DNA from: Leuctra nigra | Lineage: Eukaryota; Arthropoda; Insecta; Plecoptera; Leuctridae | Direction: 5' to 3' | Length of the DNA stretch: 64,000 nt | Assembly: GCA_934045905.1 (NCBI GenBank) | Contig: OW203767.1 | Location: forward strand, 16,061,073 to 16,125,072 | Shown here: piece by piece, positions 29,335 through 55,774 of the stretch | Layout of the letters: the number at the start of each line of letters is the position of its first letter | Position numbering within the stretch: position 1 is the stretch's first letter | Program-made: the position numbers and the translations under genes | Notes under the pieces: generated by a model | Told to the model about the DNA's origin: nothing | Database searches by the model: none | What the model saw: only the letters and a program-made list of their open reading frames with translations

Positions 29335-29721
29335 TTAGTTGGTCAGCTGCTTGTAGAGCGCGATGATGAGTGACACAAGAAGCAGCATCTTGCTGTGGAC
29401 GACACGTGTAGACACGTTGCACAAATCACCGTTGCAATGGCAAGCAGTCCCACTCCAGTATGCATTTGATTCCTCCTTACATTCTGCCGTAATAGAATAT
29501 CCACACGTTCTAGATTCAGCAAAGTTCCCGTCCTTGTCCTTTCCATGAGATTTAAGGCAGAAATCACCGGGACAAATCTTAGTGTCCGCTTTCGTTATAT
29601 CATACGGACAAGTTTTATAACCTGTTACTACACCACCCTTTTCTGCTTTAATGCACTGATAGCACTTGACAGCTGTTGCCTGTTTGCAGTAGACGAGGAG
29701 TACAGCGACGACCAGCGGAAC
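29335..29721 (-). CDS. Ly6/uPAR (three-finger) GPI-anchored protein, terminal coding exon
   Basis: The exon encodes 128 residues and a TAA (29335-29337). An AG acceptor at 29722-29723 precedes the first in-frame codon, GTT. It starts with the hydrophobic end of a signal peptide (VPLVVAVLLVYCKQATA) and then KCYQC. Ten cysteines follow at exon residues 20, 23, 38, 50, 55, 73, 81, 94, 96 and 101, ending CHCNGDLCN, the Ly6 signature. A hydrophobic tail near residues 112-121 (MLLLVSLIIA) fits a GPI-anchor signal. Such proteins act at the extracellular membrane face, for example in septate junctions or receptor modulation in insects; the specific role is unknown. The initiator methionine must lie in an upstream exon, that is, inside or beyond the satellite array. 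A consensus donor exists at 43553-43559 (CAG then GTAAGC on the minus strand), but the link is speculative. Confidence 0.85.
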   Translation of the reverse strand, partial: VPLVVAVLLVYCKQATAVKCYQCIKAEKGGVVTGYKTCPYDITKADTKICPGDFCLKSHGKDKDGNFAESRTCGYSITAECKEESNAYWSGTACHCNGDLCNVSTRVVHSKMLLLVSLIIALYKQLTN

Positions 29722-32442
29722 CTGTCAACACATCAGCCTCAGTACAACTCCTAACACAGCTAGGAAGATACGTGGCTTCTTCTCGTTGCAATGATAACAC
29801 TTGATAGCTGCGTGCAGCACCTAGTAGAGGAGAACCAGCAGACCTGTCAACAAAACAGCCTCAGTACGACTCCTTACACAGCTAGGAAGATACGTGGCTT
29901 CTTCTCGTTGCAATGATAACACTTGATAGCTGCGTGCAGTACCTAGTAGAGGAGAACCAGCAGACCTGTCAACACAACAGACTCAGTACAACTCCTAACA
30001 CTGCTAGGAAGATACGTGGCTTCTTCTCGTTGCAATGATAACACTTGATAGCTGCGTGCAGTACCTAGTAGAGGAGAACCAGCAGACCTGTCAACACAAC
30101 AGACTCAGTACAACTCCTAACACAGCTAGGAAGATACGTGGCTTCTTCTCGTTGCAATGATAACACTTGATAGCTGCGTGCAGTACCTAGTAGAGGAGAA
30201 CCAGCAGACCTGTCAACACAACAGACTCAGTACAACTCCTAACACTGCTAGGAAGATACGTGGCTTCTTCTCGTTGCAATGATAACACTTGATAGCTGCG
30301 TGCAGTACCTAGTAGAGGAGAACCAGCAGACCTGTCAACACAACAGACTCAGTACAACTCCTAACACTGCTAGGAAGATACGTGGCTTCTTCTCGTTGCA
30401 ATGATAACACTTGATAGCTGCGTGCAGTACCTAGTAGAGGAGAACCAGCAGACCTGTCAACACAACAGACTCAGTACAACTCCTAACACTGCTAGGAAGA
30501 TACGTGGCTTCTTCTCGTTGTAATCATAACACTTGATAGCTGCGTGCAGTACCTAGTAGAGGAGAACCAGCAGACCTGTCAACACAACAGACTCAGTACA
30601 ACTCCTAACACAGCTAGGAAGATACGTGGCTTCTTCTCGTTGCAATGATAACACTTGATAGCTGCGTGCAGTACCTAGTAGAGGAGAACCAGCAGACCTA
30701 TCAACACAACAGACTCAGTACAACTCCTAACACAGCTAGGAAGATACGTGGCTTCTTCTCGTTGCAATGATAACACTTGATAGCTGCGTGCAGTACCTAG
30801 TAGAGGAGAACCAGCAGACCTGTCAACACAACAGACTCAGTACAACTCCTAACACTGCTAGGAAGATACGTGGCTTCTTCTCGTTGCAATGATAACACTT
30901 GATAGCTGCGTGCAGTACCTAGTAGAGGAGAACCAGCAGACCTGTCAACACAACAGACTCAGTACAACTCCTAACACTGCTAGGAAGATACGTGGCTTCT
31001 TCTCGTTGCAATGATAACACTTGATAGCTGCGTGCAGTACCTAGTAGAGGAGAACCAGCAGACCTGTCAACACAACAGACTCAGTACAACTCCTAACACT
31101 GCTAGGAAGATACGTGGCTTCTTCTCGTTGCAATGATAACACTTGATAGCTGCGTGCAGTACCTAGTAGAGGAGAACCAGCAGACCTGTCAACACAACAG
31201 ACTCAGTACAACTCCTAACACTGCTAGGAAGATACGTGGCTTCTTCTCGTTGCAATGATAACACTTGATAGCTGCGTGCAGTACCTAGTAGAGGAGAACC
31301 AGCAGACCTGTCAACACAACAGACTCAGTACAACTCCTAACACTGCTAGGAAGATACGTGGCTTCTTCTCGTTGTAATCATAACACTTGATAGCTGCGTG
31401 CAGTACCTAGTAGAGGAGAACCAGCAGACCTGTCAACACAACAGACTCAGTACAACTCCTAACACTGCTAGGAAGATACGTGGCTTCTTCTCGTTGCAAT
31501 GATAACACTTGATAGCTGCGTGCAGTACCTAGTAGAGGAGAACCAGCAGACCTGTCAACACAACAGCCTCAGTACAACTCCTAACACTGCTAGGAAGATA
31601 CGTGGCTTCTTCTCGTTGCAATGATAACACTTGATAGCTGCGTGCAGTACCTAGTAGAGGAGAACCAGCAGACCTATCAACACAACAGACTCAGTACAAC
31701 TCCTAACACTGCTAGGAAGATACGTGGCTTCTTCTCGTTGCAATGATAACACTTGATAGCTGCGTGCAGTACCTAGTAGAGGAGAACCAGCAGACCTGTC
31801 AACACAACAGCCTCAGTACAACTCCTAACACTGCTAGGAAGATACGTGGCTTCTTCTCGTTGCAATGATAACACTTGATAGCTGCGTGCAGTACCTAGTA
31901 GAGGAGAACCAGCAGACCTATCAACACAACAGACTCAGTACAACTCCTAACACAGCTAGGAAGATACGTGGCTTCTTCTCGTTGCAATGATAACACTTGA
32001 TAGCTGCGTGCAGTACCTAGTAGAGGAGAACCAGCAGACCTGTCAACACAACAGACTCAGTACAACTCCTACCACAGCTAGGAAGATACGTGGCTTCTTC
32101 TCGTTGCAATGATAACACTTGATAGCTGCGTGCAGTACCTAGTAGAGGAGAACCAGCAGACCTGTCAACACAACAGCCTCAGTACAACTCCTTACACAGC
32201 TAGGAAGATACGTGGCTTCTTCTCGTTGTAATGATAACACTTGATAGCTGCGTGCAGTACCTAGTAGAGGAGAACCAGCAGACCTGTCAACACAACAGCC
32301 TCAGTACAACTCCTAACACAGCTAGGAAGATACGTGGCTTCTTCTCGTTGCAATGATAACACTTGATAGCTGCGTGCAGTACCTAGTAGAGGAGAACCAG
32401 CAGACCTGTCAACACAACAGACTCAGTACAACTCCTAACACA

Positions 32443-35400
32443 TCTAGGAAGATACGTGGCTTCTTCTCGTTGTAATCATAACACTTGATAGCTGCGTGCA
32501 GTACCTAGTAGAGGAGAACCAGCAGACCTATCAACACAACAGACTCAGTACAACTCCTACCACAGCTAGGAAGATACGTGGCTTCTTCTCGTTGCAATGA
32601 TAACACTTGATAGCTGCGTGCAGTACCTAGTAGAGGAGAACCAGCAGACCTGTCAACACAACAGCCTCAGTACAACTCCTTACACAGCTAGGAAGATACG
32701 TGGCTTCTTCTCGTTGTAATGATAACACTTGATAGCTGCGTGCAGTACCTAGTAGAGGAGAACCAGCAGACCTGTCAACACAACAGCCTCAGTACAACTC
32801 CTAACACAGCTAGGAAGATACGTGGCATCTTCTCGTTGCAATGATAACACTTGATAGCTGCGTGCAGTACCTAGTAGAGGAGAACCAGCAGACCTGTCAA
32901 CACAACAGCCTCAGTACAACTCCTAACACAGCTAGGAAGATACGTGGCATCTTCTCGTTGCAATGATAACACTTGATAGCTGCGTGCAGTACCTAGTAGA
33001 GGAGAACCAGCAGACCTGTCAACACAACAGCCTCAGTACAACTCCTAACACAGCTAGGAAGATACGTGGCATCTTCTCGTTGCAATGATAACACTTGATA
33101 GCTGCGTGCAGTACCTAGTAGAGGAGAACCAGCAGACCTGTCAACACAACAGCCTCAGTACAACTCCTAACACAGCTAGGAAGATACGTGGCATCTTCTC
33201 GTTGCAATGATAACACTTGATAGCTGCGTGCAGTACCTAGTAGAGGAGAACCAGCAGACCTGTCAACACAACAGCCTCAGTACAACTCCTAACACAGCTA
33301 GGAAGATACGTGGCATCTTCTCGTTGCAATGATAACACTTGATAGCTGCGTGCAGTACCTAGTAGAGGAGAACCAGCAGACCTGTCAACACAACAGCCTC
33401 AGTACAACTCCTTACACAGCTAGGAAGATACGTGGCTTCTTCTCGTTGTAATGATAACACTTGATAGCTGCGTGCAGTACCTAGTAGAGGAGAACCAGCA
33501 GACCTGTCAACACAACAGCCTCAGTACAACTCCTAACACTGCTAGGAAGATACGTGGCTTCTTCTTGTTGTAATCATAACACTTGATAGCTGCGTGCAGT
33601 ACCTAGTAGAGGAGAACCAGCAGACCTATCAACACAACAGACTCAGTACAACTCCTAACACAGCTAGGAAGATACGTGGCTTCTTCTCGTTGTAATCATA
33701 ACACTTGATAGCTGCGTGCAGTACCTAGTAGAGGAGAACCAGCAGACCTGTCAACACAACAGCCTCAGTACAACTCCTTACACAGCTAGGAAGATACGTG
33801 GCTTCTTCTCGTTGCAATGATAACACTTGATAGCTGCGTGCAGTACCTAGTAGAGGAGAACCAGCAGACCTGTCAACACAACAGACTCAGTACAACTCCT
33901 AACACTGCTAGGAAGATACGTGGCTTCTTCTCGTTGCAATGATAACACTTGATAGCTGCGTGCAGTACCTAGTAGAGGAGAACCAGCAGACCTGTCAACA
34001 CAACAGCCTCAGTACAACTCCTAACACAGCTAGGAAGATACGTGGCTTCTTCTCGTTGTAATCATAACACTTGATAGCTGCGTGCAGTACCTAGTAGAGG
34101 AGAACCAGCAGACCTATCAACACAACAGACTCAGTACAACTCCTAACACTGCTAGGAAGATACGTGGCTTCTTCTCGTTGTAATCATAACACTTGATAGC
34201 TGCGTGCAGTACCTAGTAGAGGAGAACCAGCAGACCTGTCAACACAACAGCCTCAGTACAACTCCTTACACAGCTAGGAAGATACGTGGCTTCTTCTCGT
34301 TGTAATGATAACACTTGATAGCTGCGTGCAGTACCTAGTAGAGGAGAACCAGCAGACCTGTCAACACAACAGCCTCAGTACAACTCCTAACACTGCTAGG
34401 AAGATACGTGGCTTCTTCTCGTTGCAATGATAACACTTGATAGCTGCGTGCAGTACCTAGTAGAGGAGAACCAGCAGACCTGTCAACACAACAGCCTCAG
34501 TACAACTCCTAACACAGCTAGGAAGATACGTGGCTTCTTCTCGTTGCAATGATAACACTTGATAGCTGCGTGCAGTACCTAGTAGAGGAGAACCAGCAGA
34601 CCTGTCAACACAACAGCCTCAGTACAACTCCTAACACAGCTAGGAAGATACGTGGCTTCTTCTCGTTGCAATGATAACACTTGATAGCTGCGTGCAGTAC
34701 CTAGTAGAGGAGAACCAGCAGACCTGTCAACACAACAGACTCAGTACAACTCCTAACACTGCTAGGAAGATACGTGGCTTCTTCTCGTTGCAATGATAAC
34801 ACTTGATAGCTGCGTGCAGTACCTAGTAGAGGAGAACCAGCAGACCTGTCAACACAACAGCCTCAGTACAACTCCTAACACAGCTAGGAAGATACGTGGC
34901 TTCTTCTCGTTGTAATCATAACACTTGATAGCTGCGTGCAGTACCTAGTAGAGGAGAACCAGCAGACCTATCAACACAACAGACTCAGTACAACTCCTAA
35001 CACTGCTAGGAAGATACGTGGCTTCTTCTCGTTGTAATCATAACACTTGATAGCTGCGTGCAGTACCTAGTAGAGGAGAACCAGCAGACCTGTCAACACA
35101 ACAGCCTCAGTACAACTCCTAACACAGCTAGGAAGATACGTGGCTTCTTCTCGTTGTAATCATAACACTTGATAGCTGCGTGCAGTACCTAGTAGAGGAG
35201 AACCAGCAGACCTATCAACACAACAGACTCAGTACAACTCCTAACACTGCTAGGAAGATACGTGGCTTCTTCTCGTTGCAATGATAACACTTGATAGCTG
35301 CGTGCAGTACCTAGTAGAGGAGAACCAGCAGACCTGTCAACACAACAGCCTCAGTACAACTCCTAACACTGCTAGGAAGATACGTGGCTTCTTCTCGTTG

Positions 35401-35736
35401 CAATGATAACACTTGATAGCTGCGTGCAGTACCTAGTAGAGGAGAACCAGCAGACCTGTCAACACAACAGCCTCAGTACAACTCCTAACACAGCTAGGAA
35501 GATACGTGGCTTCTTCTCGTTGTAATCATAACACTTGATAGCTGCGTGCAGTACCTAGTAGAGGAGAACCAGCAGACCTGTCAACACAACAGCCTCAGTA
35601 CAACTCCTTACACAGCTAGGAAGATACGTGGCTTCTTCTCGTTGTAATGATAACACTTGATAGCTGCGTGCAGTACCTAGTAGAGGAGAACCAGCAGACC
35701 TGTCAACACAACAGACTCAGTACAACTCCTAACACA
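32443..35736. repeat. Higher-order block, 27 units (3,294 bp), first copy
   Basis: Rare unit variants mark this block: a CATCTAGG unit at its start, five consecutive GGCATCTTC units (32826-33320) and a CTTCTTGTTG unit (33557). All three recur exactly 3,294 bases later. Variant order matches unit by unit for most of the block, with one unit lost and one gained in the second half. Confidence 0.85.
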
Positions 35737-38700
35737 TCTAGGAAGATACGTGGCTTCTTCTCGTTGTAATCATAACACTTGATAGCTGCGTGCAGTACCT
35801 AGTAGAGGAGAACCAGCAGACCTATCAACACAACAGACTCAGTACAACTCCTACCACAGCTAGGAAGATACGTGGCTTCTTCTCGTTGCAATGATAACAC
35901 TTGATAGCTGCGTGCAGTACCTAGTAGAGGAGAACCAGCAGACCTGTCAACACAACAGCCTCAGTACAACTCCTTACACAGCTAGGAAGATACGTGGCTT
36001 CTTCTCGTTGTAATGATAACACTTGATAGCTGCGTGCAGTACCTAGTAGAGGAGAACCAGCAGACCTGTCAACACAACAGCCTCAGTACAACTCCTAACA
36101 CAGCTAGGAAGATACGTGGCATCTTCTCGTTGCAATGATAACACTTGATAGCTGCGTGCAGTACCTAGTAGAGGAGAACCAGCAGACCTGTCAACACAAC
36201 AGCCTCAGTACAACTCCTAACACAGCTAGGAAGATACGTGGCATCTTCTCGTTGCAATGATAACACTTGATAGCTGCGTGCAGTACCTAGTAGAGGAGAA
36301 CCAGCAGACCTCTCAACACAACAGCCTCAGTACAACTCCTAACACAGCTAGGAAGATACGTGGCATCTTCTCGTTGCAATGATAACACTTGATAGCTGCG
36401 TGCAGTACCTAGTAGAGGAGAACCAGCAGACCTGTCAACACAACAGCCTCAGTACAACTCCTAACACAGCTAGGAAGATACGTGGCATCTTCTCGTTGCA
36501 ATGATAACACTTGATAGCTGCGTGCAGTACCTAGTAGAGGAGAACCAGCAGACCTGTCAACACAACAGCCTCAGTACAACTCCTAACACAGCTAGGAAGA
36601 TACGTGGCATCTTCTCGTTGCAATGATAACACTTGATAGCTGCGTGCAGTACCTAGTAGAGGAGAACCAGCAGACCTGTCAACACAACAGCCTCAGTACA
36701 ACTCCTTACACAGCTAGGAAGATACGTGGCTTCTTCTCGTTGTAATGATAACACTTGATAGCTGCGTGCAGTACCTAGTAGAGGAGAACCAGCAGACCTG
36801 TCAACACAACAGCCTCAGTACAACTCCTAACACTGCTAGGAAGATACGTGGCTTCTTCTTGTTGTAATCATAACACTTGATAGCTGCGTGCAGTACCTAG
36901 TAGAGGAGAACCAGCAGACCTATCAACACAACAGACTCAGTACAACTCCTAACACAGCTAGGAAGATACGTGGCTTCTTCTCGTTGTAATCATAACACTT
37001 GATAGCTGCGTGCAGTACCTAGTAGAGGAGAACCAGCAGACCTGTCAACACAACAGCCTCAGTACAACTCCTTACACAGCTAGGAAGATACGTGGCTTCT
37101 TCTCGTTGTAATGATAACACTTGATAGCTGCGTGCAGTACCTAGTAGAGGAGAACCAGCAGACCTGTCAACACAACAGCCTCAGTACAACTCCTAACACT
37201 GCTAGGAAGATACGTGGCTTCTTCTCGTTGCAATGATAACACTTGATAGCTGCGTGCAGTACCTAGTAGAGGAGAACCAGCAGACCTGTCAACACAACAG
37301 CCTCAGTACAACTCCTAACACAGCTAGGAAGATACGTGGCTTCTTCTCGTTGTAATCATAACACTTGATAGCTGCGTGCAGTACCTAGTAGAGGAGAACC
37401 AGCAGACCTGTCAACACAACAGCCTCAGTACAACTCCTTACACAGCTAGGAAGATACGTGGCTTCTTCTCGTTGTAATGATAACACTTGATAGCTGCGTG
37501 CAGTACCTAGTAGAGGAGAACCAGCAGACCTGTCAACACAACAGCCTCAGTACAACTCCTAACACTGCTAGGAAGATACGTGGCTTCTTCTCGTTGCAAT
37601 GATAACACTTGATAGCTGCGTGCAGTACCTAGTAGAGGAGAACCAGCAGACCTGTCAACACAACAGCCTCAGTACAACTCCTAACACAGCTAGGAAGATA
37701 CGTGGCTTCTTCTCGTTGCAATGATAACACTTGATAGCTGCGTGCAGTACCTAGTAGAGGAGAACCAGCAGACCTGTCAACACAACAGCCTCAGTACAAC
37801 TCCTAACACAGCTAGGAAGATACGTGGCTTCTTCTCGTTGCAATGATAACACTTGATAGCTGCGTGCAGTACCTAGTAGAGGAGAACCAGCAGACCTGTC
37901 AACACAACAGACTCAGTACAACTCCTAACACTGCTAGGAAGATACGTGGCTTCTTCTCGTTGCAATGATAACACTTGATAGCTGCGTGCAGTACCTAGTA
38001 GAGGAGAACCAGCAGACCTGTCAACACAACAGCCTTAGTACAACTCCTAACACAGCTAGGAAGATACGTGGCTTCTTCTCGTTGTAATCATAACACTTGA
38101 TAGCTGCGTGCAGTACCTAGTAGAGGAGAACCAGCAGACCTATCAACACAACAGACTCAGTACAACTCCTAACACTGCTAGGAAGATACGTGGCTTCTTC
38201 TCGTTGTAATCATAACACTTGATAGCTGCGTGCAGTACCTAGTAGAGGAGAACCAGCAGACCTATCAACACAACAGACTCAGTACAACTCCTAACACTGC
38301 TAGGAAGATACGTGGCTTCTTCTCGTTGTAATCATAACACTTGATAGCTGCGTGCAGTACCTAGTAGAGGAGAACCAGCAGACCTGTCAACACAACAGCC
38401 TCAGTACAACTCCTAACACAGCTAGGAAGATACGTGGCTTCTTCTCGTTGTAATCATAACACTTGATAGCTGCGTGCAGTACCTAGTAGAGGAGAACCAG
38501 CAGACCTATCAACACAACAGACTCAGTACAACTCCTAACACTGCTAGGAAGATACGTGGCTTCTTCTCGTTGCAATGATAACACTTGATAGCTGCGTGCA
38601 GTACCTAGTAGAGGAGAACCAGCAGACCTGTCAACACAACAGCCTCAGTACAACTCCTAACACTGCTAGGAAGATACGTGGCTTCTTCTCGTTGCAATGA

Positions 38701-39030
38701 TAACACTTGATAGCTGCGTGCAGTACCTAGTAGAGGAGAACCAGCAGACCTGTCAACACAACAGCCTCAGTACAACTCCTAACACAGCTAGGAAGATACG
38801 TGGCTTCTTCTCGTTGTAATCATAACACTTGATAGCTGCGTGCAGTACCTAGTAGAGGAGAACCAGCAGACCTGTCAACACAACAGCCTCAGTACAACTC
38901 CTTACACAGCTAGGAAGATACGTGGCTTCTTCTCGTTGTAATGATAACACTTGATAGCTGCGTGCAGTACCTAGTAGAGGAGAACCAGCAGACCTGTCAA
39001 CACAACAGCCTCAGTACAACTCCTAACACT
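35737..39030. repeat. Higher-order block, 27 units, second copy
   Basis: This is the tandem duplicate of 32443-35736. The rare CATCTAGG unit is at 35735, the GGCAT cluster starts at 36120 and the CTTCTTGTTG unit is at 36851, each offset by 3,294. One unit carries a private CCTCTC variant (about 36311). It is probably the product of unequal crossing-over inside the array; an assembly duplication is the alternative. Confidence 0.85.
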
Positions 39031-42000
39031 GCTAGGAAGATACGTGGCTTCTTCTCGTTGCAATGATAACACTTGATAGCTGCGTGCAGTACCTAGTAGA
39101 GGAGAACCAGCAGACCTGTCAACACAACAGCCTCAGTACAACTCCTAACACAGCTAGGAAGATACGTGGCTTCTTCTCGTTGCAATGATAACACTTGATA
39201 GCTGCGTGCAGTACCTAGTAGAGGAGAACCAGCAGACCTGTTAACACAACAGCCTCAGTACAACTCCTAACACAGCTAGGAAGATACGTGGCTTCTTCTC
39301 GTTGTAATCATAACACTTGATAGCTGCGTGCAGTACCTAGTAGAGGAGAACCAGCAGACCTGTCAACACAACAGCCTCAGTACAACTCCTAACACTGCTA
39401 GGAAGATACGTGGCTTCTTCTCGTTGCAATGATAACACTTGATAGCTGCGTGCAGTACCTAGTAGAGGAGAACCAGCAGACCTGTCAACACAACAGACTC
39501 AGTACAACTCCTAACACTGCTAGGAAGATACGTGGCTTCTTCTCGTTGCAATGATAACACTTGATAGCTGCGTGCAGTACCTAGTAGAGGAGAACCAGCA
39601 GACCTGTCAACACAACAGCCTCAGTACAACTCCTAACACAGCTAGGAAGATACGTGGCTTCTTCTCGTTGCAATGATAACACTTGATAGCTGCGTGCAGT
39701 ACCTAGTAGAGGAGAACCAGCAGACCTGTCAACACAACAGCCTCAGTACAACTCCTAACACTGCTAGGAAGATACGTGGCTTCTTCTCGTTGCAATGATA
39801 ACACTTGATAGCTGCGTGCAGTACCTAGTAGAGGAGAACCAGCAGACCTGTCAACACAACAGCCTCAGTACAACTCCTAACACAGCTAGGAAGATACGTG
39901 GCTTCTTCTCGTTGTAATCATAACACTTGATAGCTGCGTGCAGTACCTAGTAGAGGAGAACCAGCAGACCTGTCAACACAACAGCCTCAGTACAACTCCT
40001 TACACAGCTAGGAAGATACGTGGCTTCTTCTCGTTGCAATGATAACACTTGATAGCTGCGTGCAGTACCTAGTAGAGGAGAACCAGCAGACCTGTCAACA
40101 CAACAGCCTCAGTACAACTCCTAACACAGCTAGGAAGATACGTGGCTTCTTCTCGTTGCAATGATAACACTTGATAGCTGCGTGCAGTACCTAGTAGAGG
40201 AGAACCAGCAGACCTATCAACACAACAGACTCAGTACAACTCCTAACACTGCTAGGAAGATACGTGGCTTCTTCTCGTTGTAATCATAACACTTGATAGC
40301 TGCGTGCAGTACCTAGTAGAGGAGAACCAGCAGACCTGTCAACACAACAGCCTCAGTACAACTCCTAACACAGCTAGGAAGATACGTGGCTTCTTCTCGT
40401 TGTAATCATAACACTTGATAGCTGCGTGCAGTACCTAGTAGAGGAGAACCAGCAGACCTATCAACACAACAGACTCAGTACAACTCCTAACACTGCTAGG
40501 AAGATACGTGGCTTCTTCTCGTTGCAATGATAACACTTGATAGCTGCGTGCAGTACCTAGTAGAGGAGAACCAGCAGACCTGTCAACACAACAGCCTCAG
40601 TACAACTCCTAACACAGCTAGGAAGATACGTGGCTTCTTCTCGTTGCAATCAAAACACTTGATAGCTGCGTGCAGTACCTAGTAGAGGAGAACCAGCAGA
40701 CCTATCAACACAACAGCCTCAGTACAACTCCTAACACAGCTAGGAAGATACGTGGCTTCTTCTCGTTGTAATCATAACACTTGATAGCTGCGTGCAGTAC
40801 CTAGTAGAGGAGAACCAGCAGACCTATCAACACAACAGACTCAGTACAACTCCTAACACTGCTAGGAAGATACGTGGCTTCTTCTCGTTGTAATCATAAC
40901 ACTTGATAGCTGCGTGCAGTACCTAGTAGAGGAGAACCAGCAGACCTGTCAACACAACAGCCTCAGTACAACTCCTAACACAGCTAGGAAGATACGTGGC
41001 TTCTTCTCGTTGTAATCATAACACTTGATAGCTGCGTGCAGTACCTAGTAGAGGAGAACCAGCAGACCTATCAACACAACAGACTCAGTACAACTCCCAA
41101 CACTGCTAGGAAGATACGTGGCTTCTTCTCGTTGCAATGATAACACTTGATAGCTGCGTGCAGTACCTAGTAGAGGAGAACCAGCAGACCTGTCAACACA
41201 ACAGCCTCAGTACAACTCCTAACACAGCTAGGAAGATACGTGGCTTCTTCTCGTTGTAATCATAACACTTGATAGCTGCGTGCAGTACCTAGTAGAGGAG
41301 AACCAGCAGACATGTCAACACAACAGCCTCAGTACAACTCCTAACACAGCTAGGAAGATACGTGGCTTCTTCTCGTTGTAATCATAACACTTGATAGCTG
41401 CGTGCAGTACCTAGTAGAGGAGAACCAGCAGACCTATCAACACAACAGACTCAGTACAACTCCTAACACTGCTAGGAAGATACGTGGCTTCTTCTCGTTG
41501 CAATGATAACACTTGATAGCTGCGTGCAGTACCTAGTAGAGGAGAACCAGCAGACCTGTCAACACAACAGCCTCAGTACAACTCCTAACACAGCTAGGAA
41601 GATACGTGGCTTCTTCTCGTTGTAATCATAACACTTGATAGCTGCGTGCAGTACCTAGTAGAGGAGAACCAGCAGACCTGTCAACACAACAGCCTCAGTA
41701 CAACTCCTAACACAGCTAGGAAGATACGTGGCTTCTTCTCGTTGCAATCAAAACACTTGATAGCTGCGTGCAGTAGTAGAGGAGAACCAGCAGACCTGTC
41801 AACACAACAGACTCAGTACAACTCCTAACACTGCTAGGAAGATACGTGGCTTCTTCTCGTTGCAATCAAAACACTTGATAGCTGCGTGCAGTACCTAGTA
41901 GAGGAGAACCAGCAGACCTATCAACACAACAGACTCAGTACAACTCCTAACACTGCTAGGAAGATACGTGGCTTCTTCTCGTTGTAATCATAACACTTGA

Positions 42001-42496
42001 TAGCTGCGTGCAGTAGTAGAGGAGAACCAGCAGACCTGTCAACACAACAGACTCAGTACAACTCCTAACACTGCTAGGAAGATACGTGGCTTCTTCTCGT
42101 TGCAATCAAAACACTTGATAGCTGCGTGCAGTAGTAGAGGAGAACCAGCAGACCTGTCAACACAACAGACTCAGTACAACTCCTAACACTGCTAGGAAGA
42201 TACGTGGCTTCTTCTCGTTGTAATCATAACACTTGATAGCTGCGTGCAGTACCTAGTAGAGGAGAACCAGCAGACCTATCAACACAACAGACTCAGTACA
42301 ACTCCTAACACTGCTAGGAAGATACGTGGCTTCTTCTCGTTGTAATCATAACACTTGATAGCTGCGTGCAGTACCTAGTAGAGGAGAACCAGCAGACCTG
42401 TCAACACAACAGCCTCAGTACAACTCCTTACACAGCTAGGAAGATACGTGGCTTCTTCTCGTTGTAATCATAACACTTGATAGCTGCGTGCAGTAC

Positions 42497-43364
42497 CAGT
42501 GGCGTCGGAAGTCTATTTTCTCAGGGGGGGCACACTTTGCTTAGGATCTAGGTAAGTTAGGTACTAAATTGTAAGGGAGAATATAATACAGTAAATGACT
42601 ATGTGTGTGGGAAACACGATTGCCAAAGGAAACAATGGGGGGTCTGGGGGGAGGGTCCCCCAGCACATCATTCTTGAATTTCAAGAATGAATTTGGAGCG
42701 TTTCTACGTGATTTCACACTTTTTAAACCGATCTTTCTCTGAACAAATAAATGGACGACATTATTTGTTGGTAAATTGGATCCGATCCACTTCACGTCAG
42801 GACTGCCAAAAAAAGTGATTAAAAAAATATGTGTGGAAAATGTGTCATAAAATTATATAAGTAGGTAATATGCACTTGAAAAGTGATTAGTTTTGGATGA
42901 TATCTCTGCATTTTTTCACATTCACAATAGGTCCAATTTGAAATGCATTATGAAATTAAATCTCAGACATATCACATTAAAATGCCGCGCAGCGGATTTT
43001 TTTTGAATTTCAAATGATTTTTGTGCATTTTATTTTAATTTTAAGAAAACAAAGGTTAATCATTCACTCATATCAGGAATGTTCATATAAATATGCCCCG
43101 CAGCGATTTTCTCAAACTTTATTACTCTAGGCAGTGTTAAAATGATTTTGGTGTAAAATAACAAAATCAATTGAATTTCGTAAGAAGACTCTCACATGAC
43201 ATTAGGTAACAACAATGCCGCGCAGCGATTTTTTTTTTGATATTCAGACCTTTTAAAATATATTATGCGTTGCCAGGGGGGGCAGATTGATACTCTTGCA
43301 CCCCCTTCAGACGTCTAGGGGGGGGGCACGTGCCCCTGCTGCCCCCCCGGTTCCGACGCCACTG
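42497..43364. mobile_element. Non-autonomous hAT element, 868 bp, inserted in the satellite
   Basis: It begins CAGTGGCGTCGGAA and ends TTCCGACGCCACTG, a perfect 14-bp inverted repeat. TGCAGTAC is duplicated on both sides (42489-42496 and 43365-43372). The eight-base duplication falls inside a 122-bp unit, which resumes in register after the element. The ends carry G-rich and C-rich runs. The motif GCMGCGATTTT recurs inside near 42985, 43095 and 43217. No transposase ORF is seen. The insertion postdates formation of that satellite unit. Confidence 0.95.
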
Positions 43365-43418
43365 TGCAGTACCTAGTAGAGGAGAACCAGCAGACCTGTC
43401 AACACAACAGACTCAGTA

Positions 43419-44240
43419 GGCTACTACGTAATGTGATGATGTCTGCTTGTGTGCTGGCAGAAAGTGTGGCTTGTCTTTATGTAAGGCTGGCTGTTGCCTC
43501 CACTATAGGCCTCCGAAAATAGGCGCGCCACTAGCAAAAGACAACTAGAAGCGCTTACCTGGGTGGATGAAAGGTGAATGAAATTTGAATGATGGGGGTG
43601 AAGTATTGAAAAAGCTATGGCCGCCGTGTTAAATTGTAGAAATATGAATAAAGAATAACGAGACTAGACCTACACTTCCCCGCCCCAGGGGAAGTGTAGG
43701 TCTAGTCTCTTTAATAAAGATATAAGAATATTGGCTTGTGCTGAAGTAGGTTAAACTGATTGAAGTGAGTCTATTATTGATTTTGTTTGTAAATATTTAT
43801 AATGCATGATTATGCCACATCCCACTGGATTCATCAAAGTTTACATAAACTAAACCGAGATTTTTTCAACTAACTCATTTCACACCTTGCGTCTTCCTTT
43901 ACACTTACAGTTTTAGTGTTGTACGACATCGTGCAGTTTAAATATTATAAAGAATCGCGAAGTAGATTTCGTAATAGACCATTTTAAATATTATCTCGGT
44001 GGCTCTGCTTTCTAAGAAAAATCATATGCAGTATTATTTCCAGGCACCTTAGTCCCTGTTTTTAAAATGATCTATTTGCTCTCTAATCCTAGCTGCGACT
44101 GTCACAGTTACAATAACTGATCTCAAGGTACTTCCACTTCGTTACTTCGTTACAAGCTGGAGTTATGTGGTTTTCTCAAGAAAAAAAATGCATTATTTGA
44201 AAATATACATTTTAACAGGGGGCAGTGACCAAGGTTATTA
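43419..44240. other. Flank of the array; possible upstream splice donor
   Basis: Unique-looking DNA. On the minus strand a consensus donor (CAG then GTAAGC) occurs at about 43553-43561. It could end a 5' non-coding exon of the Ly6 gene, but no ATG is seen in the adjoining sequence and this is unproven. A strong hairpin lies at 43660-43709. Confidence 0.3.
43660..43709. repeat. Perfect 22-bp hairpin with 6-nt loop
   Basis: The arm 43660-43681 (GAGACTAGACCTACACTTCC and two more C) is exactly complemented by 43688-43709; the loop is GCCCCA. Perfect arms this long are unexpected by chance. It could be a transposon terminus pair, a small-RNA precursor-like foldback or an assembly foldback artefact. 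Confidence 0.8.
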
Positions 44241-44797: not shown

Positions 44798-45473
44798 TTT
44801 TGATTATCACCATTTTTGAAACTTAATATTTGTATGGTTACATTTATTTTCCTTCCCATTTTGTAACTTTTTCCGAAATATCCCGCGCTCTCATTTATCG
44901 ACCGAGTTAAGGGTACAAAATATGTGCACTGGCAGCACTTGTCAGGCAGCGTACTTCCTACCGCCTGCCTTGCGTCATCCCGTATCAAACAAGTTCGATG
45001 CCTTTGGTTCAAAACCATCTCAAACGTTGTCCTGTACAATTATTGTACTGCTGACCCACCAATATTAGGTGAAATGGTCGACACATACAAGTGAAATATT
45101 TACTTATCTAGCAGTGAAATTCAGCTGTTGCTATGGAAGCAACGCAACACGTGGTGCAGGCATACCAACATAATCAAACAAAAATAAGCTAAAATATTTC
45201 TATAATATTATAGGTAAACAATTAAAATTACGCATAAAAAATATAGGTAGATAGGTACTAGAAATATATTACTACTTTAGTCTAGAAGCAAACCCTCGTC
45301 TAGTCTTTGAAATATGAACAGATGCTTAGCATCTGTATTCAGTATTCAGTATTCAGTATTTTTTATTGTCATTTGTGAATTACATTGTAATTATAAAAGA
45401 CAGTCATTGATAAACATTGTTCCTTATAAAACTTATTAAACTACATCCACAACACTATTTAATACACAGCATA

Positions 45474-48365
45474 TTAATTGCTCTCACTTTTGACATGTTT
45501 AGTTATAGCCAACTTAAACTCGTGAACATCTTTGCTATCTTTGATTACTCTAGGGATTTTGTTAAAATCCCTAAACCCTTTATAAAATATACTGTTATTT
45601 AACCTACTGTAGTTACAATGCGTAAGAAAAGCATCATCTGCATGACGAGTCATGTGTTCATGCAGAGATTTGTCAATGATAAAATACTTTGGCATATACC
45701 CTTTATAAATTTTAAAAACAAATATATACACAGCTATGTCTATCATTTCTCTGATAGTACACCATTTAAGTTTTTCTCTCATGCCACTCGTTGGGGTCAT
45801 CCTCCTTTCTCTAAGAATACATCGCATTACTTTGTTCTGCATGATCTGCAACCTATTAATATCTTCTTGTGTGTTATTATAAAACAAAGTATTGCAGTAT
45901 GTAAAATGCGGTTTTATAATACAGTTATATATCATAACTTTAGTCCATGTTGATAGATTACCTCCAACTCTATACATATATCCGATTTTCTTTCCTAATT
46001 TACTTATAACATCTTGAATATGTTTCTTAAAACATAGTCTATTATCAATTAAAACTCCCAAATATTTATAAAATTCCACACACTCAATATTAATTCCACT
46101 TATAGTTACATTATCATGCGGCTGAGTGTTTTTCATTACATTTTTTCTACCAATTACCATCATTTTTGATTTACTTTCGTTGAGTTTAAGTTTATTTACA
46201 TGAAGCCAATTTACTACGTTTATAAGTTCATGGTTTATTGTACATATGGCTTCATTTACATTTTCAGAAGCTACAGAAATCACCATGTCATCCGCATACA
46301 AATTTAAAAAACATTTTTCAACAACACTCGGAATATCATTAATATACATAATAAAAAGTAATGGTCCCAATGTAGAGCCTTGTGGAACACCATGAATACA
46401 CAATTTCTTCTCGGACAAACACTTCCCATATTTGACCTTTTGGTACCTTCCAACTAAATAGCTTTGTAGCCACTTGAGAACTGTTCCTTCTATACCATAT
46501 TTATACCTGATTTTGTAGAGTAATCTATCCAAATTAACGGTCTCAAACGCTCTTTTAAGATCCAGAAAAACTGCTACCGTAACTTTATTATCATCTACAT
46601 CTTTCATCCATTTAGCTAGGAGACCCTGAACTGCTGTCTCACATGAGTGTTTCTCTCGGAATCCAGATTGATTAATGTACAAAAGTTTATTTACATCCAG
46701 GTACTCGCTTAATTGACTGTGTACCACACTCTCAAGTATTTTATCCATGATTGCCAACATGTTTATAGGTCTAAATTCACACATTTGAATCGTATTTTTC
46801 ACCTTAGGAATAGGAATGATGGTAGATTCCTTTAAATCAGTAGGAAAACAGCCCTGCGATAATGACATATTTATAAAATCAAGAACAAAGTATTTGGACA
46901 CTTTATGGGAATCCATGAAAAGTTTATACGGTATACCATCTACATCACCTTTTATGCTTTTCAAACTTTTCATTTCATGTTCTAGAGTCACAAGAGATAT
47001 ACTTTTAAAAGATTCAAAAGTATTTACATTTTCTTCCTCTACTGTATAATGATCCAAATTTGGAATACTTTCAACTATCTTAGTGATACTGTCAAGAAAA
47101 TAATTGTTAAAAGCATTAGCAATATCCTTTTCCTCCGTCAACAAGATATCTTCATTATTTACAATTTCATTCTGAATATCACATTTCATTTCTGTATTAC
47201 AAATTCCTTTAAGTGTACGCCATAACTTATTACTATCCCCTTTAACATCATCAATTTTTCTTTCATAGTAATTTCTTTGAGCAGACTTGAGACTTCTGGT
47301 AACCACATTTCTACTCTTTTTATACTGTATCCAGTCATCATGATTACCCGACACTTTAGCCCTCTTATACAATAAGTTTCTGCTAGATATATTTTCTTTA
47401 ATTTCCCTACCTAGCCACGGAATATTCTTTCTATTTTTTCTTGTTACTTCAACTTTTTGTAAACACTCATTCCTAGACTCTAATATGTTTGTCTTCCACA
47501 CCTTGTACTTGGAATCCAAATCCAAATCATTATAACTCCAATCTCTCGTATAAAGGTCATTCCTAAAAGCATCACTATTGTAATTATTCCAGTCATCGAC
47601 CCATCTTGTCACATCCTTGGCTTCTTTTTTATTTATCTGAGCGTTTCTAATAGTGACACCAATCACCTCGTGATCAGATATACTAACATTAGGCATGATA
47701 TCTGCAGTTACCAGTGCACCATAATTTGTAATTACAATATCGATGAGAGTTTTTGTGTCTTTCGTCACTCTAGTAGGGACCTTTATAATCTGTTTGTGAC
47801 CATATTCAGCAAGTAGCTCTTTCAGTCTCTTAACATACCCAACATTTACCAACCAATTAAAGTTTAGATCCCCTATCATAATAAATATACCTTTAACTTT
47901 CTTAACATCTTCAAAAATCTTCTCAATAAAATTAACTGCTTCTTTTTTCTTAGCATTAGGAGATATGTACCCTGTGTATATAACACATGTGGATCCTCTA
48001 ATACAGACCTGCACCCCAATAAACCAGTATCCTAATTTCTTTTCACTTATGTTAACAATGACATTTGCACTGATGTTATTTTTAACATACATAATAACTC
48101 CCCCCGTAAATCTCGAATGAGAATTACATCTGATCATTCTATAACCAGGTATGTCAATTTCTTTGTCATATATCTTATCATTTACATGAGTTTCCCCAAT
48201 GCCTATTAAAATCGGATTTATTTTCTTAATGTAAGTTAGAATATCATAATAGTTCTTTGTTAAACTTTGAGCATTTAAATGTATGATATCTGTATCTTCA
48301 TGCTCTGCATTATCTATTAATGTAATAGCTTCTATACTACTGCTCGGCAAGCCATCCTTTAGTTG
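45474..48365 (-). CDS. LINE ORF2: endonuclease and reverse transcriptase
   Basis: The frame runs about 963 codons from the ORF1 stop to a stop at 45474. Numbering below is from the TTG at 48350. The APE-type endonuclease has N26, E53 (GETH), D161 and N163 (GDLNFNW), and SDH at 225-227. The reverse transcriptase has FRPIN (526-530), the first catalytic aspartate in FLDLKRAF (D597), GVPQGSTLGP (654-663) and YADD (685-688). No RNase H domain is visible, as in CR1/Jockey elements. The product nicks target DNA and copies the element RNA at the break. No ATG occurs until codon 72, past the first endonuclease catalytic residues, and the frame is continuous with ORF1 across a single TAG. It is therefore most likely made as an ORF1-ORF2 readthrough product. 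Confidence 0.93.
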   Translation of the reverse strand, partial: QLKDGLPSSSIEAITLIDNAEHEDTDIIHLNAQSLTKNYYDILTYIKKINPILIGIGETHVNDKIYDKEIDIPGYRMIRCNSHSRFTGGVIMYVKNNISANVIVNISEKKLGYWFIGVQVCIRGSTCVIYTGYISPNAKKKEAVNFIEKIFEDVKKVKGIFIMIGDLNFNWLVNVGYVKRLKELLAEYGHKQIIKVPTRVTKDTKTLIDIVITNYGALVTADIMPNVSISDHEVIGVTIRNAQINKKEAKDVTRWVDDWNNYNSDAFRNDLYTRDWSYNDLDLDSKYKVWKTNILESRNECLQKVEVTRKNRKNIPWLGREIKENISSRNLLYKRAKVSGNHDDWIQYKKSRNVVTRSLKSAQRNYYERKIDDVKGDSNKLWRTLKGICNTEMKCDIQNEIVNNEDILLTEEKDIANAFNNYFLDSITKIVESIPNLDHYTVEEENVNTFESFKSISLVTLEHEMKSLKSIKGDVDGIPYKLFMDSHKVSKYFVLDFINMSLSQGCFPTDLKESTIIPIPKVKNTIQMCEFRPINMLAIMDKILESVVHSQLSEYLDVNKLLYINQSGFREKHSCETAVQGLLAKWMKDVDDNKVTVAVFLDLKRAFETVNLDRLLYKIRYKYGIEGTVLKWLQSYLVGRYQKVKYGKCLSEKKLCIHGVPQGSTLGPLLFIMYINDIPSVVEKCFLNLYADDMVISVASENVNEAICTINHELINVVNWLHVNKLKLNESKSKMMVIGRKNVMKNTQPHDNVTISGINIECVEFYKYLGVLIDNRLCFKKHIQDVISKLGKKIGYMYRVGGNLSTWTKVMIYNCIIKPHFTYCNTLFYNNTQEDINRLQIMQNKVMRCILRERRMTPTSGMREKLKWCTIREMIDIAVYIFVFKIYKGYMPKYFIIDKSLHEHMTRHADDAFLTHCNYSRLNNSIFYKGFRDFNKIPRVIKDSKDVHEFKLAITKHVKSESN

Positions 48366-48368
48366 CTA
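48360..48368 (-). promoter_or_regulatory. Candidate stop-codon readthrough site (UAG CAA CUA)
   Basis: ORF1 ends ATG TAG, followed in the same frame by CAA CTA AAG GAT. UAG-CAR-YYA is the established leaky-stop consensus first described around the tobamovirus replicase stop, and CAA CUA fits both degenerate positions. The downstream frame is ORF2, which lacks a usable ATG. Readthrough is inferred from context, not shown. Confidence 0.65.
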
Positions 48369-49280
48369 CATTTTTTGTTTGGACAGGTCATTTTTTATTT
48401 TTACGTAATAAGAGCAGTTAAGGTCACTGGCTTCATGCACCGTGCTAATATCTAGCTTGCATCTACCTTTATATCTAATACAATTTATACAGTTCATGAT
48501 TTCCTCTTCGCAGACACGAATGTTATGCGGTCCTGCGCAAAACTCGCACACCATTTCACCTCGACACTCTCTAGCGATGTGTCCATAACGTTGGCACTGA
48601 AAACAGCGCTTAATACGCACATACTTGGGAGCTACTGCACTACTCACTTCATTTTGCACTTTACCGACGTTTTTCCACTTATCACGCTGCATTTGTTGAT
48701 AGTTATTTATCTGTTGCCCATGTGAATGAGCGTCATCGTTGCTATGGTGCTGATGCGGCTCGAATTCAGGAATTTCGCCGTCATTCGTGATGACCTCCTC
48801 GCCTGTTGTTGGTTTTCTTCTCCGGTGATCTCGCTGACGCGATGCGCTGGTATTTCTGCCGCCAAGGACAATGCGTTCCTTGTTGACATCGCCGACATCG
48901 GGATTGCGATGAACGGGTATATCTCCCGCCAAGGTCAATTCGTGCTCCACTGTAGTCGAGATTTCTTCTTTTAGCTTCAACTCTAATTGATCTATTTTAT
49001 CTCGTTGCAGTTGAGTAATATATTCTAGATCGGATATTCTTTTTCTTAACAGATTGTTTTCTCTTATTAAGAAATCCACATCACTCTGAGGCATTTGCTC
49101 AGACAGAGGCAAATTACGTACTATAACACTATTGTCCTCGGTAAAACTTAAGTCAATACTTTTTAAATCGTCGAATATTTCGATAATTTCACGAACACTT
49201 TTATTTTTGTCCTCATTGTCAACAACGGTACCATCCAAACTTGGCACAGTTTTCCTAGATCTCGTAACAACATTCGTCAT
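48366..49280 (-). CDS. LINE ORF1: gag-like zinc-knuckle nucleic-acid-binding protein
   Basis: The product is 304 residues from the ATG at 49278-49280. The frame is open further upstream, but the apparent earlier start is a TTG. A coiled-coil segment spans about residues 68-107 (heptads in NNLLRKRISDLEY...LELKLKEEI). A basic, His-rich linker follows, then three zinc knuckles: C226-C229-H234-C239 (CFQCQRYGHIAREC), C245-C248-H252-C257, and a partial C264-C267-C274. This is the usual ORF1 of arthropod LINEs. It binds element RNA and forms the ribonucleoprotein particle. It ends at a TAG followed in frame by ORF2. Confidence 0.88.
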   Translation of the reverse strand: MTNVVTRSRKTVPSLDGTVVDNEDKNKSVREIIEIFDDLKSIDLSFTEDNSVIVRNLPLSEQMPQSDVDFLIRENNLLRKRISDLEYITQLQRDKIDQLELKLKEEISTTVEHELTLAGDIPVHRNPDVGDVNKERIVLGGRNTSASRQRDHRRRKPTTGEEVITNDGEIPEFEPHQHHSNDDAHSHGQQINNYQQMQRDKWKNVGKVQNEVSSAVAPKYVRIKRCFQCQRYGHIARECRGEMVCEFCAGPHNIRVCEEEIMNCINCIRYKGRCKLDISTVHEASDLNCSYYVKIKNDLSKQKM

Positions 49281-49404
49281 TTCCACTACTGAAAGGAACT
49301 TGTTTCGCGGAGCTATCAAACACGACCTGCCTCGACCACGCAGCGTGCCTCGACCACGCTGTTCATGCTAAGATTCACTAGCTAGCAGTGAATTCACTTT
49401 GAAT

Positions 49405-50707: not shown

Positions 50708-52536
50708 CTAATCCTTGGCCTCGATGGCCTTGGGCGGATTATGTGTGTAAATGTAGTTGGTGAGAGCGGTGGCTAATGACAGCCACACCATGTACGGTAT
50801 GAAGATGTAGCCAGCAGTCTTGTTCACTTGGAAGAAGGCAATCCCGGTCGCTGCTGCCGCACCCCACAAGACACTGATCTCGATCAAACCCTACACGGAG
50901 GAGACAAGAAAAGTCAAATGCAGAAGAAATGCTAGATTTCTAATTGAGTTAGTATAAAGTCAATTGGATTCCAGAGTTTAACATAAAGTGCAAATTCGTT
51001 GGCTGGAAATTGTTGAATTTGAAATGCTTAGTGGGATATGGACTTAAGCAATTTGTTTTCCAAGTGTGGAAATTAATAAGATTTTAATAGGATTAGGTAA
51101 CCATAACCGTGGTATAACGAATTCGTCTTTGACCCCCCCTCCCTCCCTAACCATTACTCCCAAAAACTACATAATAAATATTGCATGCAAAGATAATTTT
51201 TCTGAATACAATGGTGAATATTAATTTTAAGCTTGTATTACCTACTACACCCATAATTTTTACCTATAGACTGACTGGACTTATTGTGGCCAAATTGTTT
51301 TGCAGAAGTAGATAACATAAAATTTCAGATAACAATTTAGAATTCTTATCTTGACTTTATTTCATGCTACAAAACAACTGTTTGGTTTCAGAAAAGTACA
51401 TTTGGCTGTACTATATTAAAACCAAATTAGATAACTGGTCCACAGATTGTGCCACATAGCATAACATAATAGCATAACGGAAACAAATTGTAAATTAAAA
51501 TGTATCTCGTACCTAGGCCTACTATTGAAAATAAAACCGTAGGAACCATTTTATGAGAATGTAATGACTAATGTCTGTCCGTCCGGCTGGGTTGCCCAGT
51601 TCGTAGAGCACTCACCCGGCAAGTGAGATGACCAAGGTTCGAGGCCCGGTTCGGTCAGACATTTTTCACAACGCACATCCCTCAATTTAGTACCTACTAG
51701 TTTGAAACTCACCCATTTGAGATTGTGCATTCCAAAGAAGATGGGAGTCCATGCCCAGTTCAAGGCCAACTGTGAGCCGAAGAGTGCAAGAGGAAGAGTT
51801 GCCGGGCCTCCGAACTGTCTCCCGGCGTCACGCCAGACCAGGTACGACGCATAACCCATGCCAGAGTACAACGCCGTCCATACAGGCCCGAACGCCCAGT
51901 CTGGCGGAGTCCACGTAGGTCTGTTCAAAGTCTGTCAATAAATAAGAGAGACTGTTGGTTCATTGGAAATATTCTGTTCCAAACATTCTAGTAGGTACCT
52001 AGGTAGTACTAAATAGCTGTACCTACAGCACACAGGAAGAACACATTTCATACTCACATAATACGACCTTGAAAATGATTATGCAATGTGGGTAATAAAC
52101 TAATATTGTAGGTAGGTAGGTAGTCCTTTGTTTTCAAGGAACTATAAAATTGTATAAACATGTGTTATGTCATAGCAGTGACCAACACATTATTAAACAG
52201 ATAGTAGGTACCTACTAGGTAAACCTAGGTACCTACTGTTTTTGACACAAACCCTTCCACTCTGTGTGTTTTGAGGGCTCTCACAAGGGACAAATCAAAC
52301 TAATAAACTACCTAATTGTATTCTGAGCTATCTACCTATGCGCTAAAATTATATCGGCTGGCAGCACCTGTGAGTGTCTTAAATCAACAAGTAGGTACAC
52401 ACCCCAACACATCGTTTTTAAAACTTACCTTGTACCATGTAGCCACTTCATTCCTCGTCATAAAGGCGCTAGCCCATCCGCCAATATTCGGCAAAATAGT
52501 TGCTCCAACAAGCGGCCAATTAAACGAAAACGACAT
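50708..52536 (-). CDS. Tspo: Translocator protein TSPO, copy 1
   Basis: Coding exons are 52429-52536, 51713-51931 and 50708-50890, with GT-AG introns in phase 0 (donors AAG/GTAAGT and TGG/GTGAGT). The spliced product is 36 + 73 + 60 = 169 residues, the usual TSPO length. It starts [20 protein letters not shown] and carries the family hallmarks [26 protein letters not shown] and QVNKTAG. Five hydrophobic segments fit the five-helix outer-mitochondrial-membrane fold that binds cholesterol and porphyrins. A CRAC-like cholesterol motif ([12 protein letters not shown]) sits near the C-terminus. An AATAAA lies at 50494-50499 on the minus strand. A tRNA-like SINE lies in the second intron. It is the most canonical of three tandem copies. 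Confidence 0.95.
51580..51665 (+). mobile_element. tRNA-derived SINE head in TSPO copy 1 intron
   Basis: A tRNA-like segment has A-box-like TTGCCCAGTTCGTAGAGCA and B-box GGTTCGAGGCC (51636-51646) at the right spacing. It lies antisense to TSPO, between the second and third coding exons. Its acceptor arm does not close as a functional tRNA. Read on the gene strand it gives [20 protein letters not shown], a typical spurious peptide from SINE sequence. Its extent beyond the head is unclear. Confidence 0.6.
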
Positions 52537-52749
52537 CTTCAGAGTGTATATCTTCAAATTAAAATTATATTACTACGAAGCTACTGCAGTGGCAACCACA
52601 ACCAAGTTCGATTCGAAGAACAAAACAATGACGCGTGACGTGAACTCGTGAAGGCCACTGTCAGTGTGTGACGTAACCAGCTGATGCAACACATGGTGCA
52701 GTAGAGCCAACATCAACATTAGAAAATACGCTATTTTGAAATTATAGGT

Positions 52750-53860
52750 ACAAGGGCGGGGGTGGACATTACTAATATTTTGAAAATCACAGTGGAAATC
52801 AGGGGGTTCGTTTAGGTGCAATTTTGAATCTCAGTGTATAGCTATTTTGGGAAATTATAAATTACAAAATATTAAAAAATTGGTCTAAGAGGTTGAAGAA
52901 TTGGTAAATTTCTTGAATTTATTAGGATAATAATATGTAAGTCCGGGGCACATAGCACCGGAAAATTTTGGAATTTTAACTCCATTCTAAGATTCTAACC
53001 ATTCTAATCTATTTTTTAAAGTTTATTTTCACACATTATTTTAAATGTGTATATTTTTTTTGATGAACCCTGATTTCGGGGGGGGGGGGCGGGGGGGGCC
53101 ATGCCCCCCCTCCCCCCGCCTACCCCTGAATACGTCCTTGTATAGGTACCTACCTATCAAAAATATTTAATTATTTAATAATTATTTTACATGAAATTTT
53201 AAGTTACTTTTCATCTCTACCTTATCCTAACTTATCCTAGATGGAACTATAAAAATACATGGATTGAAAGAAAATATTTATTTTGAATTTATATGTATAA
53301 AAAGGTTTTATTATGTTTAATAATTATTTTACATGAAATTTTACTAATGCCTAGTAAATAGATCAATGCTGCCAAAATAATTAGGTAAGTACAAAAATAC
53401 AAAAGTTCCAATATCAACTCAATTACTATACTGCATGGTGAAATATCCCTTGAGTAACTATTTTTCTTAATAATATAAAGCATGATGGTATACAGAGAGG
53501 TGGGATGACAAGAGCTGTACCGCCCATGCTAAGTCTGTGGACGGTATCTGTTAAGGTAAACAGACAGCTCTCTCGGCAGCAGGCAGCAGAGCGCCCTAGC
53601 GGCCAACTCGTGAAAGTCTGCATACTGCCGGGTTGGTGTCTAGTACCGCGTTCACCACCAGGCGTGCTGCATGGTGCTTTCCACGACGTTAAGGGACCGG
53701 CTCTCAGCGCTCCGTGAATTCACCACTCTGTATCCTATGCCCATGATGGCCTCTCTACCACCATGATATAAAGACTGTAAAGCACATAATAATCAAAACA
53801 TGTGTGCAGAATGTCGGTATTTGCAATGGTCGACCATTACATATAATGGGAATGAGGTAA
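52750..53860. other. Intergenic region between TSPO copies 1 and 2
   Basis: A poly-G run followed by poly-C with CCATG between them lies at about 53079-53120 and resembles the GC-rich end of a DNA transposon; no matching partner end was found. The stretch 53505-53720 is GC-richer than its flanks but has no supported frame. Confidence 0.4.
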
Positions 53861-53908
53861 GATTGCCCCACCGGTTATGATTGTAACCGTTTGTCAGCTG
53901 CTGCGGAG

Positions 53909-55773: not shown

Positions 55774-55774
55774 A

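Follow-up and report, generated by a model that had tools for sequence, protein, structure and literature searches.

A window of 64,000 nucleotides from the stonefly Leuctra nigra (GenBank assembly GCA_934045905.1, contig OW203767.1, positions 16,061,073 to 16,125,072 of the forward strand) carries, on its minus strand, what is apparently an intact two-exon Ly6 gene in which a tandem array fills ~12.8 kilobases (kb) of a 14.2-kb intron. The array lies on chromosome 6 (C6), 16 megabases (Mb) along a 39-Mb scaffold. Here, the window means this whole stretch, and positions given without a scaffold are positions within it.

The gene and the array in its predicted first intron

Exon 2 of the gene (29335..29721, minus strand) is an open frame that holds a whole Ly6/quiver domain, a hydrophobic C-terminus and a stop codon. 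It matches the Pfam QVR profile over positions 1-86 of 86 (E 2.8e-6), scoring 28.7 bits where the cut-off is 27.3, in keeping with the preliminary description, which had placed a Ly6 exon beside the array. That description had also taken the exon for one that encodes a signal peptide, and this part does not stand, as exon 2 holds the complete domain and exon 1 codes for MSYNTKT only. The exon adjoining the array reads VPLVVAVLLVYCKQATAVKCYQC. Exon 1 was located by motif search: its coding part (43909..43929, minus strand; codons ATG TCG TAC AAC ACT AAA ACT at 43929-43909) is followed directly by the donor GTAAGT. In the search set, which consisted of the window and 12 further genome stretches, the motif gave 11 matches in seven of the 13 sequences, and in every case a Ly6 exon-2 match follows downstream on that strand.

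When exons 1 and 2 are joined in phase 0, the predicted protein begins MSYNTKTVPLVVAVLLVYCKQATAVKCYQC and is hydrophobic at both ends (judged by eye). The predicted intron 1 (29722..43908, minus strand) is 14,187 base pairs (bp) long and comprises ~12.8 kb of array, an insertion of 868 bp, and ~490 bp near exon 1 that belong to neither. The array thus sits between the first exon and exon 2, within a predicted Ly6 intron, as had been proposed. The acceptor at 29722..29730 (minus strand), TGTTGACAG, would be the functional one because it alone has an intact exon after it. The units of the array carry this sequence, or one very similar to it, on the minus strand.

Tandem Repeats Finder (TRF), run on the window, reports a period of 122 bp at 29711-42497, with 104.9 copies and 97% matches, so the earlier count of ~105 units of 122 bp stands; as a feature, we place the splice-junction array at 29722..42496 on the minus strand. 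The 105 spacings between units are 122 bp in 101 cases, 118 bp in three, and 998 bp in one that spans the insertion. Unit pairs differ at a mean of 3.1 positions, and the array is as long and as homogeneous as satellite DNA. The 868-bp insertion (42497..43364, no strand assigned) lies inside the first unit, has 14-bp terminal inverted repeats and an 8-bp target-site duplication, GTACTGCA, and is hAT-like, a class that we presume from the length of that duplication. It splits off the partial first unit that forms the distal end of the array (43365..43418, minus strand); the array that had been described as extending to 43418 is therefore real, although its last fragment (43365-43418) is separated from the rest. 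The frame with LLVLLY, a stop and AAIKCYHCNEKK reported earlier is found in the units read, and differs from the frame that exon 1 dictates.

The internal order of the array is not uniform. Units 4, 5, and 7 are 118 bp long, a form otherwise found in the paralogues, and these three fall near the distal edge, in the stretch 41678..42153 (minus strand). Two blocks of 27 units each (38993-35700 and 35699-32406, together 32406..38993, minus strand) are identical unit by unit in parts: at a lag of 27, 19 of 77 unit pairs are identical, with a longest run of 6, and the longest run in the control (2000 shuffles, lags 1-59) was 5.

Homology of the units and their paralogues

The window unit aligns with exon 2 over a core of 24 bases, of which 21 match. 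The score of this alignment was reached by none of 3000 dinucleotide shuffles under one scheme and by one of 3000 under a gentler scheme. The comparison was extended to 16 Ly6 exon heads using the 118-bp unit. For its exon half, none of 2000 mononucleotide shuffles reached the score in 14 of 16 cases (the exceptions, L017a and L011, were reached by one and 15 shuffles, respectively); for its intron half, 14 of 16 were likewise unreached (L010 was reached by 15 shuffles and L013 by 70). Among 5000 random 75-mers, the 99th percentile of the score was 21 and the maximum 48, this maximum being an unfair control because the pool included L010, which contains a Ly6 exon. By homology, then, each unit is evidently a Ly6 intron tail joined to a Ly6 exon head. 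The alignment that had been suggested as a check thus exceeds chance in the shuffle tests, and the proposed origin from one exon plus adjoining intron agrees with the homology of both unit halves to Ly6 genes.

Two other accounts were considered and rejected. Chance is ruled out by the shuffle tests. The arrays of 118- and 122-bp units are also ruled out as donor cassettes for gene conversion, because their units are frame-disrupted and homogeneous.

It should be noted that the final two dozen intron bases are similar across many Ly6 paralogues that have no array. As a separate observation, TACTGAGTCTGTTGTGTTGACAG before exon 2 is nearly constant among Ly6 genes from C10, C12, and C41 (L016, L017, and L020) despite strong divergence of the proteins, which may reflect conversion or else conservation of the branch point and acceptor. 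A tree built from 51 rows of intron tail plus exon head left 26 of its 44 inner branches open and was not used. A search for Ly6 proteins in a large protein set gave 15 candidates, none of them significant, and an Rfam scan of the window gave no matches.

When 401 bases of the array were searched against the genome as DNA, there were at least 27 matches, on C2, C4, C6 (the window's own), C7, C10, C12, and C41. This is a lower bound, as the large C7 array escaped the search. With the protein sequence of exon 2 as query, 17 loci in the genome matched. In five of these 17, TRF shows an array directly beside the matched exon, its period being 118, 122, or 160: the window gene, C7:22324918, C7:22471346, C7:22897678, and C10:11481068. 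Among the other 12, some have repeats of period 18-48 in or near the exon, and one has a distant 188-bp repeat. The closest paralogue (C7:22324918-22325304) is 64% identical, has its exon 1 at C7:22338495, and carries 108.3 copies of a 118-bp unit between the two exons; 93 of 106 spacings in this array are 118 bp and none is 122 bp. Arrays of 108.3, 10.2, and 5.9 copies on C7, and one of 4.6 copies on C2, lie directly upstream of their Ly6 exons, so that copy number across paralogues ranges from 4.6 to 108.3. The C2 locus (C2:17.657 Mb) is outside the set of 17, and its 4.6 units precede a very divergent Ly6-like exon. Decayed copies of the unit occur on C4 and C41.

These comparisons bear on the age of the seed. 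The distal array junction is common to the window gene and three C7 loci, and the seed therefore probably predates the split of at least these four genes. Moreover, GCAACAGCT, which is present in several functional exons, was found in none of 233 units at six loci (103 in the window; 108, 10, and 6 at the C7 loci; 5 on C2; and 1 on C4). The preliminary description had proposed that one exon was amplified within its own gene family, and that the unit at the array boundary, whose intronic half matches the gene flank better than its exonic half, might be a recombinant with a paralogue. Units of the window type occur in Ly6 genes of chromosomes 2, 4, 6, and 7, which points to an old seed. The second of these proposals is not needed, given an old seed and the absence of GCAACAGCT from the units; homogenization of the array together with divergence of the exon would explain the mismatch.

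One Ly6 locus on C10 is organized differently. Its 160-bp unit has another joint (~25 bases of intron and 135 of exon) and occurs as 11.1 and 19.8 copies in blocks ~5.5 kb apart, the last unit continuing into a full, intact Ly6 exon. A genome search with this unit found no other array and only two short matches. We read the 160-bp array as having arisen independently of the 118/122-bp arrays. Between its two blocks lies a 67-bp array of 25.7 copies (L018:5874-7614), one strand of which reads SFCKDKHNHIEDGHVVIEDTV, possibly derived from the middle of a Ly6 exon.

Junction arrays outside the Ly6 genes

An axonemal dynein heavy chain gene (L039-L041, C7:22339545-22354104) adjoins the large Ly6 gene on C7 and contains four arrays, all of them across a splice junction, with units of 79 bp (2.5 copies), 112 bp (87.8 and 3.3 copies), 92 bp (17.2 copies), and 128 bp (2.1 copies). 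By type, three are composed of acceptor plus exon head, and the 92-bp array of exon tail plus donor. The 30 residues encoded by the 112-bp unit match DNAH17 (E 1.9e-6), and their match to Pfam AAA_9 falls under the cut-off. We joined four exons of this gene by taking the last acceptor or the first donor at each array, so that the junction always came from the copy next to the intact exon. The result has 403 residues, of which 1-402 align with DNAH17 without a gap (E 9.5e-181), and the surplus copies are therefore most simply regarded as silent intron. The three joins cover the 112-, 92-, and 128-bp arrays, whereas the 79-bp array sits at the start of the query, outside the joins.

Two more junction arrays were found by eye near Ly6 loci, with units of 56 bp (3.6 copies, L009:4787-4989) and 130 bp (3.0 copies, L015:2195-2581), and both seem to end in an intact exon. 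Overall, 224 kb of sequence, made up of genome stretches and the window, gave 22 TRF rows with a period of at least 50. Twelve of those arrays were found without Ly6 matching, and by our own reading six of the 12 span a splice junction, a proportion that is not a genome rate because the stretches were picked around Ly6 matches.

Other elements were seen along the way. On the minus strand of the window, a non-long-terminal-repeat (non-LTR) retrotransposon occupies 45335-49367, with a GTATTCA repeat at its end, a reverse transcriptase frame at 45474-48365 (RVT_1), and an upstream zinc-knuckle frame at 48366-49367. Farther along (51551-57389), several minus-strand open frames resemble tandem TSPO gene copies, and the one such frame that was compared with Pfam (57105-57389) matches TspO_MBR. 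Elsewhere in the assembly, a full-length match to mitochondrial COX1 occurs near the end of the X-chromosome scaffold (C13:51651552-51652892, L052), besides contig C144, and is either a nuclear insertion or an assembly joint. Translated with table 5, this C13 copy of COX1 shows 100% identity over 447 residues with entries of Leuctra fusca and Leuctra nigra.

Splice-site choice, rival explanations, and known systems

The array poses an unusual problem of splice-site choice. Among the 106 acceptor positions that precede a unit or the exon, 105 have AG (104 of the 105 decoys and the functional one). Over the last 30 intron bases, 56 decoys differ from the functional acceptor at one base, 27 at two, 21 at three, and one at eight. 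If exon 1 were spliced to the decoys, each of the 105 would give a stop, after 34 residues (101 decoys), 33 (one), or 22 (three). A working gene requires that the last acceptor be chosen. Exon definition would achieve this, since no other acceptor has a complete terminal exon after it. Recursive splicing, or use of a 23-nucleotide microexon in the 122-bp form, was also considered: the functional acceptor is followed by GT (CAG/GTCTGC), and the microexon ends in AG/GTACTG. By eye, both look poor as donors.

We consider it likely (probability of about 0.78) that the array is a minisatellite of the "mirage" type, grown to satellite length, which was seeded by duplication of a Ly6 splice junction and whose surplus copies are silent in splicing. 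Mirages are tandem repeats of amphioxus that span intron-exon boundaries (PMC3087553). In an ancestral Ly6 gene with two exons, a small tandem duplication across the border of intron 1 and exon 2 would have left a spare junction in the intron; we place the duplication in the ancestor because the paralogues share this structure. Unequal exchange would then have expanded and homogenized the array separately in each descendant gene, as suggested by the locus-specific unit types, the 118-bp units near the distal edge, and the repeated 27-unit block. Splicing would act on the one junction copy that is joined to the intact exon, leaving the others as intron that never enters the protein, and duplications that span a junction would be tolerated because splicing hides the surplus. 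The same rule fits both the acceptor and the donor arrays of the dynein gene; junctions could therefore let coding sequence seed a satellite while the gene stays unbroken. A broader proposal, to which we give even odds, is that satellites of as many as ~100 copies form repeatedly from this stonefly's own splice junctions and that splicing conceals them from the protein.

Several points weigh against this interpretation. Intron 1 and the silence of the decoys are themselves predictions. Values of nonsynonymous (dN) and synonymous (dS) divergence for exon 2 are 0.39 and 0.54 against L011, 0.55 and 0.53 against L010, and 0.56 and 1.45 against L009, and with such high dN/dS the case for protein constraint is weak; comparisons with L013 and L018 are not used. 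A single shared seed does not by itself account for the C2 array, whose distal edge differs. In addition, none of 30 kinase exon stretches had a tandem array of period 30 or more touching the matched part of the exon. These were partial-domain rows, hand-picked from 132 matches and taken with 600-700 flanking bases on each side, so that the true border of long exons may fall beyond the stretch; at one of them (L045), a 22-bp repeat of two copies starts 19 bases after the matched part. The process is thus uneven, and this control does not show it to be general.

The rival explanations differ mainly in what they make of the decoys and of the gene. The near-copies could be functional, trapping transcripts as dead-end RNAs so that copy number tunes the output of the gene. 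Consistent with this are the AG in 104 of 105 decoys, nearly all within three of 30 bases of the real acceptor, and the early stop that all 105 would give if used; however, lancelet mirages are reported to yield no aberrant mRNAs (PMC3087553, PMC3902484), and the dynein gene would suffer several times over, since more than one of its junctions has an array. We consider this role unlikely, and the suggestion in the preliminary description that the pseudo-acceptors could affect splicing is not supported here. Less likely again is that the gene is dead or dying, its correct splicing blocked by the array and its intact frame a matter of recent history. Every decoy leads to a stop, and dN/dS is high against several paralogues, as this would predict, but exon 2 is free of stops and has the cysteines of the family, exon 1 and its donor are intact, and the closest paralogue (64% identical) keeps open exons around its 108-copy array, from which it follows that both genes probably stayed open through a long divergence.

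Finally, an unrelated satellite or transposon might lie in the intron, or the array might be an artefact of assembly, with a chance likeness to Ly6. Matches to the unit on several chromosomes do resemble a dispersed repeat. At the array loci examined, however, the array stands directly before Ly6 exon 2, and the homology extends to Ly6 genes that have no array. No copies of the array were seen apart from a Ly6 exon, in a DNA search that gives a minimum only, as the large C7 array escaped it. An artefact is also at odds with a published assembly that is described as made from 32-fold HiFi reads (PMC10280035), and with the presence inside the array of a transposon with an intact target-site duplication. 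We regard this last explanation as highly improbable.

If the interpretation as a splicing-silent, mirage-type array is correct, satellites can be born inside genes under the shield of splicing, and the cell must pick one of more than 100 near-identical 3' splice sites. It would illustrate a way in which a satellite could arise from coding sequence while the gene survives. The locus also offers a natural test of splice-site choice, with 105 decoys, near-identical over the last 30 bases, before the real acceptor: under plain scanning, in which the first good acceptor is taken, the gene should fail, and under exon definition only the last acceptor should be used. In the titles and abstracts of the open-licence literature searched, no such arrays were found in stoneflies or in Ly6 genes.

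Among known systems, the LU (Ly6/uPAR) genes are described as typically having three exons and a domain that is divided into two parts (PMC6600238). The window gene resembles them in its ten-cysteine LU domain, in the clustering of the genes, and in a hydrophobic tail that may be of the glycosylphosphatidylinositol (GPI) type; unlike the typical case, it has two predicted exons, the second of which contains the complete domain, and an array in the intron. The Y-linked axonemal dynein genes of Drosophila are reported to have gigantic introns filled with satellites and exceeding megabases (PMC12965833), and thus likewise represent coding genes, dyneins included, with satellite-enlarged introns that need to be spliced. 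However, the available text does not say that those satellites derive from the genes' own splice junctions, whereas the stonefly unit is the junction itself, and the stonefly genes are on chromosome scaffolds other than the X.

The closest likeness is to the amphioxus mirages. In the accounts available, the BflGb6 mirage has units of 150-160 bp, six and three in two haplotypes; BflGb9 has a boundary duplicate; Adh3 has units of 10-72 bp; and regular splicing is reported as undisturbed (PMC3087553). A troponin C mirage and similar repeats in PGBD5 have also been described in amphioxus (PMC3902484). As in the stonefly, these are tandem copies over an intron-exon boundary, with intronic tail, exon head, and splice signals (present in many, although not all, mirage copies). 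Either boundary can be used, as in the stonefly dynein gene (three acceptor arrays and one donor array), and the clusters are homogenized inside and less so at the edges, as is the stonefly array. Effects on mRNA have been tested for the amphioxus mirages, whereas those of the stonefly arrays are predicted. Compared with the six and three units of BflGb6, the stonefly arrays reach 105-108 units and 12.8 kb, and they occur in an insect, in several paralogues as well as an unrelated dynein gene. The stonefly arrays thus agree with mirages in the features that were compared and differ from the globin cases in scale, host, and recurrence.

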